From Candidatus Aquicultor sp. (GTDB lineage: Bacteria > Actinomycetota > Aquicultoria > Aquicultorales > Aquicultoraceae), in the NCBI GenBank assembly GCA_030682615.1, contig JAUXNY010000150.1, forward strand, positions 1 through 41,502: DNA of 41,502 nucleotides. Direction: 5' to 3'. The position numbers and the translations under genes were made by a program. The notes under the pieces were generated by a model. That model saw nothing but the letters and a program-made list of their open reading frames with translations. It was not told the DNA's origin and did no database searches. Shown here one piece after another: positions 30,981 through 35,010 of the stretch (the stretch's first letter is position 1; the number at the start of each line of letters is the position of its first letter).

Positions 30981-32681
30981 GTGGGCAAAAATCGTGTGCT
31001 TGAAATACGTCTAAAATTCCTGCTCGCCATCATAATCGTCGGTCTAATGACTGTTTCAGGACGGCTCTTTTTCGTCCAAGCGATGTCCTCGTCCGAATAC
31101 GACGAAATGGCCGAGAGACAAAGGCTCCGTGTAATAGAGCTACCCTCGAAGAGAGGCGAAATCCTGGATAGAAACGGCAGCGAACTTGCGGTCAATATAT
31201 TGATGGACTCGGTCTACGCAACCCCCTACCTTATAGATGACCCGAAGAACTTCGCGAAGAAACTGGCCCCGATTTTAAAGAAAGATGAACGAAAGCTGTT
31301 GGATTCCCTTATTAAACAGTCGGGGTTCATTTATCTTGTCAGGAAAACCGATTCCAAGACTCTCGCACAGATAAAGAAAATCGTCGAAGAAGACGAGGTT
31401 AAAGGGATAGGCTATATAAAAGAGAGCAAGCGCCATTATCCGAACGGCTCGTTAGCGGGGCATGTCATAGGGTTTGCCGGCATGGACAACCACGGCCTCG
31501 GCGGCCTTGAGTTAGAATACAACGAGCTTCTCTACGGCAAACCGGGGAGGATAGTAGCCGAGAAGGATGGTCAGGGCAGACCCATCCCTCGAAGCATCCA
31601 ATCATCGTCACGACCGATCGACGGGGCCAGTATCAAAATCACGATTGACCGGGAGATACAGTACAAGGCCGAGCTGGAGTTGGCGAAGGCAGTCGAGGAG
31701 TATAAAGCCAAATCGGGCAGCGTGGTCGTCATGAACTCTAAGACCGGCGAAATCTACGCGATGGCGAACGTGCCCTGCTATAACCCGAATAAACTTGAGA
31801 CGCTCGACGACACCAATCTCCGCAACAAAGCTATAACAGACCTCTATGAGCCTGGCTCGACGATGAAGGCGGTTATCGCGGCTGTTGCTCTTGAAGAGAA
31901 GGTTTGCAGCCCTTCGACGGCGTTCTATTTAGAACCGACGATTAGGGTCGGGTCGAAGAATATCAAGGAATCGCACCCGAGACCGGCGAAGAACTTCACC
32001 TTCGCTGAGATTGTGCAGGAATCGAGCAACGTCGGCATGGTCAAAGTCGGCGTCTTGCTCGGCAAAGAGCGAATCGATAAATACCTTAAGCGCTTCGAGT
32101 TTAACAAATCTTGCGACGTAGATTTTCCCGGCGAAGCTAGAGGATATTATCCGCAGGTCGAGAACTGGTCTAAGATGTCGCTAGCTAACATACCGTTTGG
32201 GCAGGGTATTTGTACGACACAACTGGCTATGACAAAAGCGATGGCGACCATTGCCAACGATGGTGTTCCTACCCGCCCGCATTTTCTAATAGAGGCGGCA
32301 GGTCCGCGTGGCCGAATTGTTGAAAAGACGGAAATCGTGAATGGAAAACGCGTTCTCGATGTCGCTACCGCCGGGCAGATGAGGGTAATTCTCGAAAACA
32401 CAGTCTTAGTCGGGACCGGCAAGCAGGCCAAGGTGGCCGGGTATCGCGTGGGCGGAAAGACGGGAACCGCTCAAAAGGCCAAAGTCGGCGGGCGCGGATA
32501 TGAGCAAGGCAAATATATCGCTTCCTTCATGGGTATGACCCCTATGAACGACCCTCAGCTGGTAATATCGGTCGTTATTGACGAGCCCCAACAGAGCATT
32601 TACGGCGGGTCGGTCGCGGCGCCGGTTTTCAGCAAAATAGCCGAGTTCTCGCTGCGATATCTTAAAATACCACCGGAATAA
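30981..32681 (+). CDS. ftsI: septal peptidoglycan transpeptidase FtsI (PBP class B)
   Basis: Class B penicillin-binding protein that crosslinks septal peptidoglycan with FtsW; 566 residues. An N-terminal membrane anchor (about 12-32) is followed by the class B dimerisation region (SKRGEILDRNGSELAV, about 56-71) and the transpeptidase domain with S293-T-M-K296, S348-S-N350 and K493-T-G-T. No C-terminal PASTA repeats are present, unlike SpoVD or PBP2x proteins. The start is GTG at 30981. Confidence 0.95.
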   Translation: MGKNRVLEIRLKFLLAIIIVGLMTVSGRLFFVQAMSSSEYDEMAERQRLRVIELPSKRGEILDRNGSELAVNILMDSVYATPYLIDDPKNFAKKLAPILKKDERKLLDSLIKQSGFIYLVRKTDSKTLAQIKKIVEEDEVKGIGYIKESKRHYPNGSLAGHVIGFAGMDNHGLGGLELEYNELLYGKPGRIVAEKDGQGRPIPRSIQSSSRPIDGASIKITIDREIQYKAELELAKAVEEYKAKSGSVVVMNSKTGEIYAMANVPCYNPNKLETLDDTNLRNKAITDLYEPGSTMKAVIAAVALEEKVCSPSTAFYLEPTIRVGSKNIKESHPRPAKNFTFAEIVQESSNVGMVKVGVLLGKERIDKYLKRFEFNKSCDVDFPGEARGYYPQVENWSKMSLANIPFGQGICTTQLAMTKAMATIANDGVPTRPHFLIEAAGPRGRIVEKTEIVNGKRVLDVATAGQMRVILENTVLVGTGKQAKVAGYRVGGKTGTAQKAKVGGRGYEQGKYIASFMGMTPMNDPQLVISVVIDEPQQSIYGGSVAAPVFSKIAEFSLRYLKIPPE

Positions 32682-32865
32682 CAAGCGCGCGCATAGGCAG
32701 CCTAGCTCTAAAGACAGGCGCGAGCCGGTTATTTTGGAAAATATATAGAAGATTGTGCATGGTTTGCAATAAGAATCGTCAAGTCCGTCGCATTTCGATG
32801 AGTGGGCGCACAAATCGACGGTCAACGGTTTCAGCACTAGTGATGGCATCAGAAGGGGGCGGAAG

Positions 32866-33465
32866 ATGGCAAGGAATAAAGCAAAACACAGAGCACAAAG
32901 AGTGGAGAAGCGTTTAGATCAACCCAGGAAGGTGACGGCAGAACCGCACGCGGAGACAAGGATCTTTCCCGGCCGGAAGCGTGTGGTTAAACACGAGAGC
33001 AAGCCGACTATCAAGGTATTGCACGAACTAGCGGAAGCGCTTACGAGGAAACGCAAGCCCAAGCTGGTCAACGCGGAAAGAATAGTGTCTGTCGAAGCAA
33101 GGCGCCAGATGAAAATCGTCGCCGAGCCCCGTACCGTGGTCCCTTCCTTCGAGTTCAGGCTCGACGCGTTGTCGGATAACGGATATTTGTGGCGCAATGA
33201 ATACCAGGAGCTGCTGGCCTGTTCTGATGTCGATACAGCCGTTTTTAAGAGCGGTCATGCGGAAATCATCGAAGGCGATTCGGGCATCGATATCTTGAGG
33301 AGCATGGTCTTCTCCAATACCATGGACGAATCCTTCGCCGGGCAGATTGGATCTGGATATTTGTGGAAACATGAAAATGAAGCCCTTTTCGCGGGTTACG
33401 GGGGCTGCAATCATAAGGTCTCAGCTATAATAGACGACAACGAGAGTTTTTTTATGGTTCACTAA
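32866..33465 (+). CDS. unknown protein with duplicated GYLW motif in the dcw cluster
   Basis: Not recognised: 199 residues, no membrane segment or signal peptide. The first about 95 residues are very basic (RNKAKHRAQRVEKRLDQP; TRKRKPKLVNAER). The second part contains two similar units 58 residues apart: NGYLWRNEYQELLA (105-118) and SGYLWKHENEALFA (163-176), each followed by an acidic stretch. This suggests an internal duplication of a short domain joined to a basic, possibly nucleic-acid- or membrane-surface-binding arm. The ATG has GGGGCGGAAG upstream. It lies between ftsI and murE, where dcw clusters do not normally have this gene, and murE has its own promoter just after it. Confidence 0.7.
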   Translation: MARNKAKHRAQRVEKRLDQPRKVTAEPHAETRIFPGRKRVVKHESKPTIKVLHELAEALTRKRKPKLVNAERIVSVEARRQMKIVAEPRTVVPSFEFRLDALSDNGYLWRNEYQELLACSDVDTAVFKSGHAEIIEGDSGIDILRSMVFSNTMDESFAGQIGSGYLWKHENEALFAGYGGCNHKVSAIIDDNESFFMVH

Positions 33466-33515
33466 TCGGGTTCAATCGAATAAACCATTGCTGCTAGACC
33501 GCGGCTTTTGTGCCT

Positions 33516-33524
33516 TGATATTAT
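33516..33524 (+). promoter_or_regulatory. extended -10 promoter of murE
   Basis: TGATATTAT matches TGn-TAnnnT; a second overlapping hexamer TATAAT is at 33524-33529. Start would lie at about 33531-33536, leaving a leader of 11-16 nt before the GTG at 33547. Confidence 0.5.
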
Positions 33525-33546
33525 ATAATGGTTTATGGAGGAGAGC

Positions 33547-35010
33547 GTGCGACTCAAAGACATTATTGCCGAAATCGAAGAGATCAAGGTCGAGGGCGAT
33601 CCCGGTATTGAGATATCGGGCTTGGCCTATGATTCGCGCCAGGTAAAAGGCGGCGAGCTTTTCTTCTGCATTCGCGGATTTAAAACCGACGGCCATGAGT
33701 TTGCCGGGCGTGCGCAAGACGCGGGGGCATCGGCGGTCATGGTAGAAGAGCTTTTGCCCGACCTATCGATAACGCAGGTCGTTGTCGCAGACACGCGCGT
33801 TGGTATGGCGCGGGCGGCGAGCGCTTTCTATGGGCATCCTACTCGCAAGATGAGGCTAGCCGGCGTAACCGGAACTAATGGGAAGACTACGACGACCTAT
33901 ATGATAGATTCGATATTTAGGTCATCGGGATATAAGACGGGCCTCATCGGCACCATCGAGTATCGGATTGGCGACGAAGTCTTTGCCGTTGAGCGAACCA
34001 CACCCGAATCACTCGATATACAGCGGCTCTTCGCGTCTATGGTCGATGCCGGTGTCGAGGCTGTATCGATTGAGGTATCATCTCATGCCATAGACCTTGC
34101 GCGGGTTGAGGCCTGTGATTTCAACGCGGTTGTCTTTACGAACTTGAGCCGGGAGCATCTGGACTATCACGGGACGATGGAGGAGTACTTCAAGGTCAAG
34201 CGCCGTATATTCGAAAGGACGTCCGGTCGGGATGTCGCACACGTCATCAATGTCGACGACCAATACGGACGCCGAATAATCGAAGAGACCGGACCGCCAC
34301 ACATAAGGTTTAGCTGTAAAGATAAAGTAGAGGTTTATGCCACAGGTATAGAAGCCAGAGCCGATGGTTCAACATTCGAGCTGCACGTGCCGGGGGCGCA
34401 GACGAGTGTAGCGCTCAGGTTGCCGGGTTTGTTCAATATACAAAACGCGTTGGCCGCGGCCGGAGTCGCATATTCACAAGGAATCGGGATTAATGTAATT
34501 AAAATCGGACTAGAGACGTTGGCGGCAGTGCCGGGGAGGTTCGAACGTATAGATTGCGGACAGGGTTTTAGTGTCATCGTCGATTATGCGCATACTCCCG
34601 ACAGCCTCGAAAAGGTCCTGACTGCGGCGCGAGAGATCACAACCGGAAGGCTGATAACGGTCTTTGGATGTGGAGGCGATCGCGACCGGGGAAAGCGGCC
34701 GTTAATGGGCAGGATTGGGACGCAATTGAGTGATTACGCAATCTTGACATCGGATAATCCGCGGAGCGAAGAGCCTGGGAAGATTATAGAGGAAATCGCA
34801 GAGGGAGTGCGTGCGCTAAACGGCAACGGCTATCATATCATCGAAGACAGAAGACTGGCTATCAAAGAGGCTATTGCTTGTGCCGGGAGCGGTGACACTG
34901 TGATCATAGCCGGTAAGGGTCATGAGGGCGGCCAGGAGATCAAGGGAGAAAAAATGCCCTTTGATGATAGAGATGTGGCTAGAGGCTACCTAGAGGAATT
35001 GAAGGGATGA
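33547..35010 (+). CDS. murE: UDP-MurNAc-L-Ala-D-Glu:diaminopimelate ligase
   Basis: Cytoplasmic Mur ligase adding the third residue to the peptidoglycan stem peptide; 487 residues from this start. Seen: the Mur P-loop GVTGTNGKTTTTYM, VSSHAIDLARVE, FTNLSREHLDYHGTMEEY, and the C-terminal TSDNPRSEEP. D-N-P-R is the motif associated with meso-diaminopimelate rather than lysine, so the wall is probably A1gamma. The GTG at 33547 is preceded by GGAGGAG; an ATG at 33535 in the same frame would add four residues but overlaps the predicted transcription start. Confidence 0.95.
   Translation: MRLKDIIAEIEEIKVEGDPGIEISGLAYDSRQVKGGELFFCIRGFKTDGHEFAGRAQDAGASAVMVEELLPDLSITQVVVADTRVGMARAASAFYGHPTRKMRLAGVTGTNGKTTTTYMIDSIFRSSGYKTGLIGTIEYRIGDEVFAVERTTPESLDIQRLFASMVDAGVEAVSIEVSSHAIDLARVEACDFNAVVFTNLSREHLDYHGTMEEYFKVKRRIFERTSGRDVAHVINVDDQYGRRIIEETGPPHIRFSCKDKVEVYATGIEARADGSTFELHVPGAQTSVALRLPGLFNIQNALAAAGVAYSQGIGINVIKIGLETLAAVPGRFERIDCGQGFSVIVDYAHTPDSLEKVLTAAREITTGRLITVFGCGGDRDRGKRPLMGRIGTQLSDYAILTSDNPRSEEPGKIIEEIAEGVRALNGNGYHIIEDRRLAIKEAIACAGSGDTVIIAGKGHEGGQEIKGEKMPFDDRDVARGYLEELKG

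Follow-up and report, generated by a model that had tools for sequence, protein, structure and literature searches.

A probable lineage-restricted orphan gene in the length-variable ftsI-murE slot of two Candidatus Aquicultor species

Introduction

An unfamiliar open reading frame (ORF) between ftsI and murE raises the question of whether it is a gene at all and, if so, whether it belongs to the cell-division machinery or has simply settled beside it. The window analysed here is the whole 41,502-nucleotide stretch of contig JAUXNY010000150.1 from Candidatus Aquicultor sp. (GCA_030682615.1; G000 below). All on the + strand, and with gene names assigned from the translations, it carries mraZ, mraW, ftsL, ftsI, the ORF, murE, murF, mraY, murD, ftsW and murG in this order. 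An earlier note on this DNA had placed a gene between ftsI and murE, and an ORF of 199 aa with an ATG start does stand there (32866-33465, +; Table 1). The same note had described the product, P0001, as an unrecognised protein with duplicated GYLW units and a basic N-terminal half, and had held that conserved placement would point to a role in septal wall synthesis or its control.

Results

Coding potential and flanking signals

The sole homologue detected, 89% identical, occupies the same ftsI-murE slot in Candidatus Aquicultor primus (G001). The 43 substitutions between the G000 and G001 copies are distributed 12/9/22 over the three codon positions, and the changed codons comprise 16 synonymous, 21 nonsynonymous and 0 stop changes, against 10.4, 28.4 and 1.2 expected by random placement of the changes. 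Nonsynonymous-plus-stop changes are accordingly fewer than expected (21 observed vs 29.6, P=0.0018); the depletion of nonsynonymous changes alone gives P=0.009 and the synonymous excess P=0.036, and the lack of stop changes carries no significance of its own, since 27% of simulations show none either. A single indel separates the copies, of 3 nt and in frame. The dN/dS of 0.31, an estimate from one pairwise comparison with 43 substitutions, is the highest of the set, eight dcw neighbours giving 0.018-0.204 for the same pair. Compared with a base-composition null, the gene's synonymous codon use is closer to that of its neighbours (P=0.003), a weak signal that does not separate the frames. The codon-usage score (0.019 in frame vs 0.021 in the best other frame) is treated as weak evidence because it does not single out the gene's frame and fails likewise for four of the ten neighbours (mraZ, mraW, ftsL and murE). 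Judged by a homologue bearing a codon-level signature of selection, the ORF is not a chance frame; it most likely encodes a protein, and on balance it is under constraint, less so than its dcw neighbours.

The motif AAGGGGG upstream of the ATG, around which the pairwise alignment has no difference between G000 and G001, is plausibly the Shine-Dalgarno sequence of the ORF. No + strand promoter or terminator is predicted in the 184 nt from ftsI to the ORF. By consensus match, the scanned stretch holds 2 promoter-like sites vs 1.0 expected. The TATTAT-type box directly 5' of murE is identical in all four genus genomes and similar in further family members; its -35 hexamer is not conserved. Because the -10 box is identical in G002 and G003, which lack the gene, this putative promoter probably belongs to murE itself. 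Its presence in carriers and gene-less genomes alike suggests that murE is probably driven by a promoter of its own and can bear changes further upstream.

Table 1. Features in and around the ftsI-murE slot of the window
Feature	Position	Strand	Basis
ftsI	30981-32681	+	name is a reading of the translation
693-bp block holding the gene	32779..33471	.	spacer alignment; absent from the colinear G003 spacer
Shine-Dalgarno-like AAGGGGG	32853..32859	+	6 nt 5' of the ATG; sequence and pairwise alignment
Orphan gene, most likely protein-coding, 199 aa (P0001)	32866..33465	+	homologue at the same slot, dN/dS, substitution pattern
GYLW unit 1, NGYLWRNEYQELLA, residues 105-118	33178..33219	+	translation, repeat scoring
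GYLW unit 2, SGYLWKHENEALFA, residues 163-176	33352..33393	+	translation, repeat scoring
Putative murE promoter, extended -10 TATTAT	33495..33524	+	consensus match only
murE	33535-35010	+	name is a reading of the translation

Features of the predicted protein

The two GYLW units, NGYLWRNEYQELLA and SGYLWKHENEALFA, lie 58 residues apart from start to start and form the top-scoring internal 14-residue pair of the protein. Their BLOSUM62 score of 44 exceeds that of all 1000 shuffles (mean 21.6, maximum 41), so that the duplication claimed at this distance is real. At the DNA level 25 of the 42 bases match, rising to 81% over a 21-nt core; the remaining direct repeats listed for the stretch are short and present in two copies. 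The basic character claimed for the N-terminal half is likewise borne out (K+R 26, D+E 11 in residues 1-97), and the C-terminal half is acidic (K+R 6, D+E 17 in residues 98-199).

The description of the protein as unrecognised also stands. Pfam assigned no family to the whole protein, and the separate searches with its halves and with the homologue gave weak matches only. The best NCBIfam match (NF005485, benzoylformate decarboxylase, E=0.06), the best PHROGs match (phrog_29576, E=0.25), DUF6047 for the N-terminal half (E=0.25) and the PDB matches of the whole sequence (E=2 and 3) were rejected as chance. A PDB search with a profile of the C-terminal half returned nothing, and PADLOC no match of weight. 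Structure prediction, which the earlier note had proposed for the two units, was run on the whole protein and on its C-terminal half; the AlphaFold2 models had mean pLDDT values of 32.8 and 35.3, too low to be of use, probably because homologues are lacking. In the accessible portions of the literature on Aquicultor, dcw insertions, dcw hypothetical proteins, mycobacterial murE-side genes and orphan genes, we did not find the gene described; the available part of PMC9395523, on dcw insertions, has nothing on the ftsI-murE slot, and that of PMC11101190, on orphan genes, does not describe the gene.

Distribution of the gene

The carriers are always G000 and G001, which amount to two of the four genus genomes, 2/36 in the class, 2/396 among the sampled phylum genomes and 2/40 among the relatives searched. 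These counts exclude a match in G030 (E=0.018, 32% over 65 aa, two stops) and a candidate second copy in the source genome (E=0.18, two internal stops), both attributed to chance. The other two genomes of the genus, G002 and G003, lack the gene and keep ftsI and murE, and no trace of it was found at the protein or DNA level in the remaining family genomes searched. A pattern scan that reaches close relatives only, run on genome_contigs (described as covering 84,980 species), returned one locus, that of Ca. Aquicultor primus. A codon pattern for the GYLW units, run on the four genus genomes, matched both units in each carrier; its matches at two other places in G002 are not claimed as paralogues, the reversed-pattern control giving 3 matches in all. 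The distribution rests on four genus genomes, of which G001 is just 77% complete. Within these searches no homologue was found outside a narrow clade, as is expected of an orphan gene.

Variability of the ftsI-murE slot

Of 40 genomes, 39 yielded a murE match. Thirty of these loci were retrieved, and in 28 of them both ftsI and murE could be placed; G006 and G008 were omitted from the spacer count since their contigs show no ftsI on that side. Counted between the stop codon of ftsI and the point where the murE match begins, which makes it slightly overlong wherever that match sets in late (as in G011), the spacer ranges from 1 to 1893 nt and exceeds 400 nt in 6/28 genomes. The gene is present in two of these 28 spacers and absent from 26. 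The placement that had been claimed as conserved is therefore not so, the gene being present in half of the genus genomes and in no other of the 396 sampled from the phylum. Once the two carriers are left aside, the longest + strand ORF in the spacers is of 68 aa. The G002 spacer measures 35 nt and that of G003 167 nt. No Rfam family matched L005, L010, L012 or L013 at gathering thresholds, and an origin elsewhere in the window, whose other frames gave E=0.22 at best, was rejected.

Other spacers have contents of their own. The 68-aa ORF, in G020 (L017), has a strong Shine-Dalgarno sequence and a zinc-ribbon-like CPSC..CPFC pattern, and looks unrelated to P0001. The longest spacer of the 28, the 1893 nt of G007 (L051), contains no + strand ORF of more than 44 codons. 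G007, G009 and G010, which belong to one related genus (L051, L052 and L053), have a common element at the start of the spacer, consisting of a strong ribosome-binding site and a short reading frame, then a long hairpin (GCCCG..TTTATCG / CGATAAA..CGGGC) whose 3' arm occurs once per genome. The frame runs for 24 codons in G007 and 36 in G009, and in G010 it meets a TGA after 7 codons, at a Cys codon of the others. This element, which has no Rfam match at gathering thresholds in L051-L053, may represent either an attenuator with a leader peptide or the remnant of a gene.

Discussion

We propose that the ORF is a young, dispensable and lineage-restricted orphan gene lodged in the length-variable ftsI-murE slot of two Candidatus Aquicultor species, on the 5' side of the likely murE promoter, a reading that we consider reasonably likely. 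It builds on what was observed directly, namely the ORF and its constraint, where it occurs among the searched genomes, and how variable the slot is. The gene is very probably genuine and undescribed, of an ordinary kind at an unusual address, and by its distribution it seems to be an accessory passenger and not a core component of cell division that had so far been missed; we regard it as dispensable for division because close relatives do without it. Like the orphan (ORFan) genes of bacteria, it is short, has no detectable family, is limited to close relatives, is less constrained than its neighbours and has an accessory distribution. Unlike the usual ones, it lies inside an otherwise conserved dcw cluster and has a clear internal motif duplication.

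Most likely, the gene entered, or arose, once in the common ancestor of G000 and G001 and would since have been kept by moderate purifying selection. The two are probably sister species, paired at 77% support in an eight-gene tree in which G002 is placed at 65%, and one gain in their ancestor is the simplest reading. As no + strand promoter or terminator is predicted between ftsI and the gene, transcription of ftsI most likely reads through into the gene, and that message would be the one translated. The resulting protein would probably be soluble and cytoplasmic. At the molecular level it can be guessed that a polyanion, either nucleic acid or membrane phosphates, would be the target of the basic N-terminal half, and that the acidic C-terminal half, with its two GYLW units, would constitute a small repeat or binding motif; such a soluble accessory binder is a tentative picture that we hold weakly. 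The readings of origin (gain, loss and mobile cargo) overlap with those of function, and the confidence placed in each is not meant to add to one.

The alternative that survives best is that of an ancestral Aquicultor gene, older than both species, which a deletion would have removed from G003 and a collapse of the spacer from G002. In the colinear G003 spacer, 5 nt stand in place of the 693-bp block and both flanks are kept (64 nt at 81% and 63 nt at 94%), so that a deletion fits as well as a gain; in neither G003 nor G002 is the block there as non-coding DNA, being missing altogether. The unstable spacer size in the family is compatible with such losses, but two of them are needed unless G002 and G003 are sisters, and the searches of further family genomes turned up no sign of the gene. 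We hold this history to be possible but rather unlikely.

Small orphan proteins are common in the cargo of mobile elements and phages, and the discrete block missing from G003 could have been inserted once in the slot and have since ameliorated. This origin is unlikely, however, given that no relative was found in phage, plasmid and viral-contig collections and that the best PHROGs match is at chance level. Moreover, no inverted repeat of at least 10 nt pairs the ends of the block, its junctions share, by eye, only TCG, and the GC content is host-like (0.511 vs 0.535 for murE and 0.515 for ftsI).

It is also improbable, in our estimation, that the protein assists septal wall synthesis in this lineage alone, binding and tuning FtsI, MurE or their partners, with its gene placed for co-expression. 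The ftsI-gene-murE arrangement is the same in both carriers, but half of the genus genomes dispense with the gene while keeping ftsI and murE, the Pfam and NCBIfam searches brought up no division or wall protein that it resembles, and P0001 has no transmembrane-like stretch (maximum 19-residue hydropathy 0.61). The septal role put forward in the earlier note loses its main support because the placement is not conserved, and nothing positive took the place of that argument.

A parallel deserves consideration here. In M. tuberculosis, pbpB/ftsI lies on the other side of Rv2161c-Rv2159c / PE_PGRS38. According to the accessible part of PMC3605390, Rv2161c-Rv2159c are directly 5' of murE and transcribed separately from it, and the Rv2160c product, described as restricted to pathogenic mycobacteria, interacted with every one of the Mur synthetases. 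As far as that part of the source goes, these genes and PE_PGRS38 resemble the P0001 gene in being foreign to the usual cluster and just 5' of murE, and M. tuberculosis resembles Aquicultor in being an actinobacterium whose murE has its own promoter, putative in Aquicultor. They are nevertheless different genes, with no sequence relation claimed, and the interaction with Mur synthetases is reported for the Rv2160c product, whereas P0001 is known here from its sequence. The septal reading keeps some probability because of this precedent at the same place, and a septal-wall role of P0001 is possible. We give very little credence to a variant in which a protein that originated in the spacer, either de novo or by very fast evolution, would now be a septal peptidoglycan modulator that binds the products of its neighbours through the GYLW units; were the protein to act on the septum, a young gene would have been wired into an essential process.

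That the ORF is no gene but a chance frame, in a non-coding spacer that has expanded as in G007, G009 and G010, is barely credible: the family does have long spacers without long + strand ORFs, the statistics come from 43 substitutions in one genome pair and codon usage fails to single out one frame, but both species keep the frame open, their sole indel being in frame, the nonsynonymous-plus-stop depletion, the dN/dS and the third-position excess all speak for selection, and the Shine-Dalgarno sequence is kept.

For the class, our preferred reading of a young orphan gene, together with spacers that vary from almost nothing to nearly two kilobases, suggests that the ftsI-murE junction of a highly conserved cluster is a permissive slot. 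A new small gene could settle there without breaking murE expression, since murE appears to have its own promoter.
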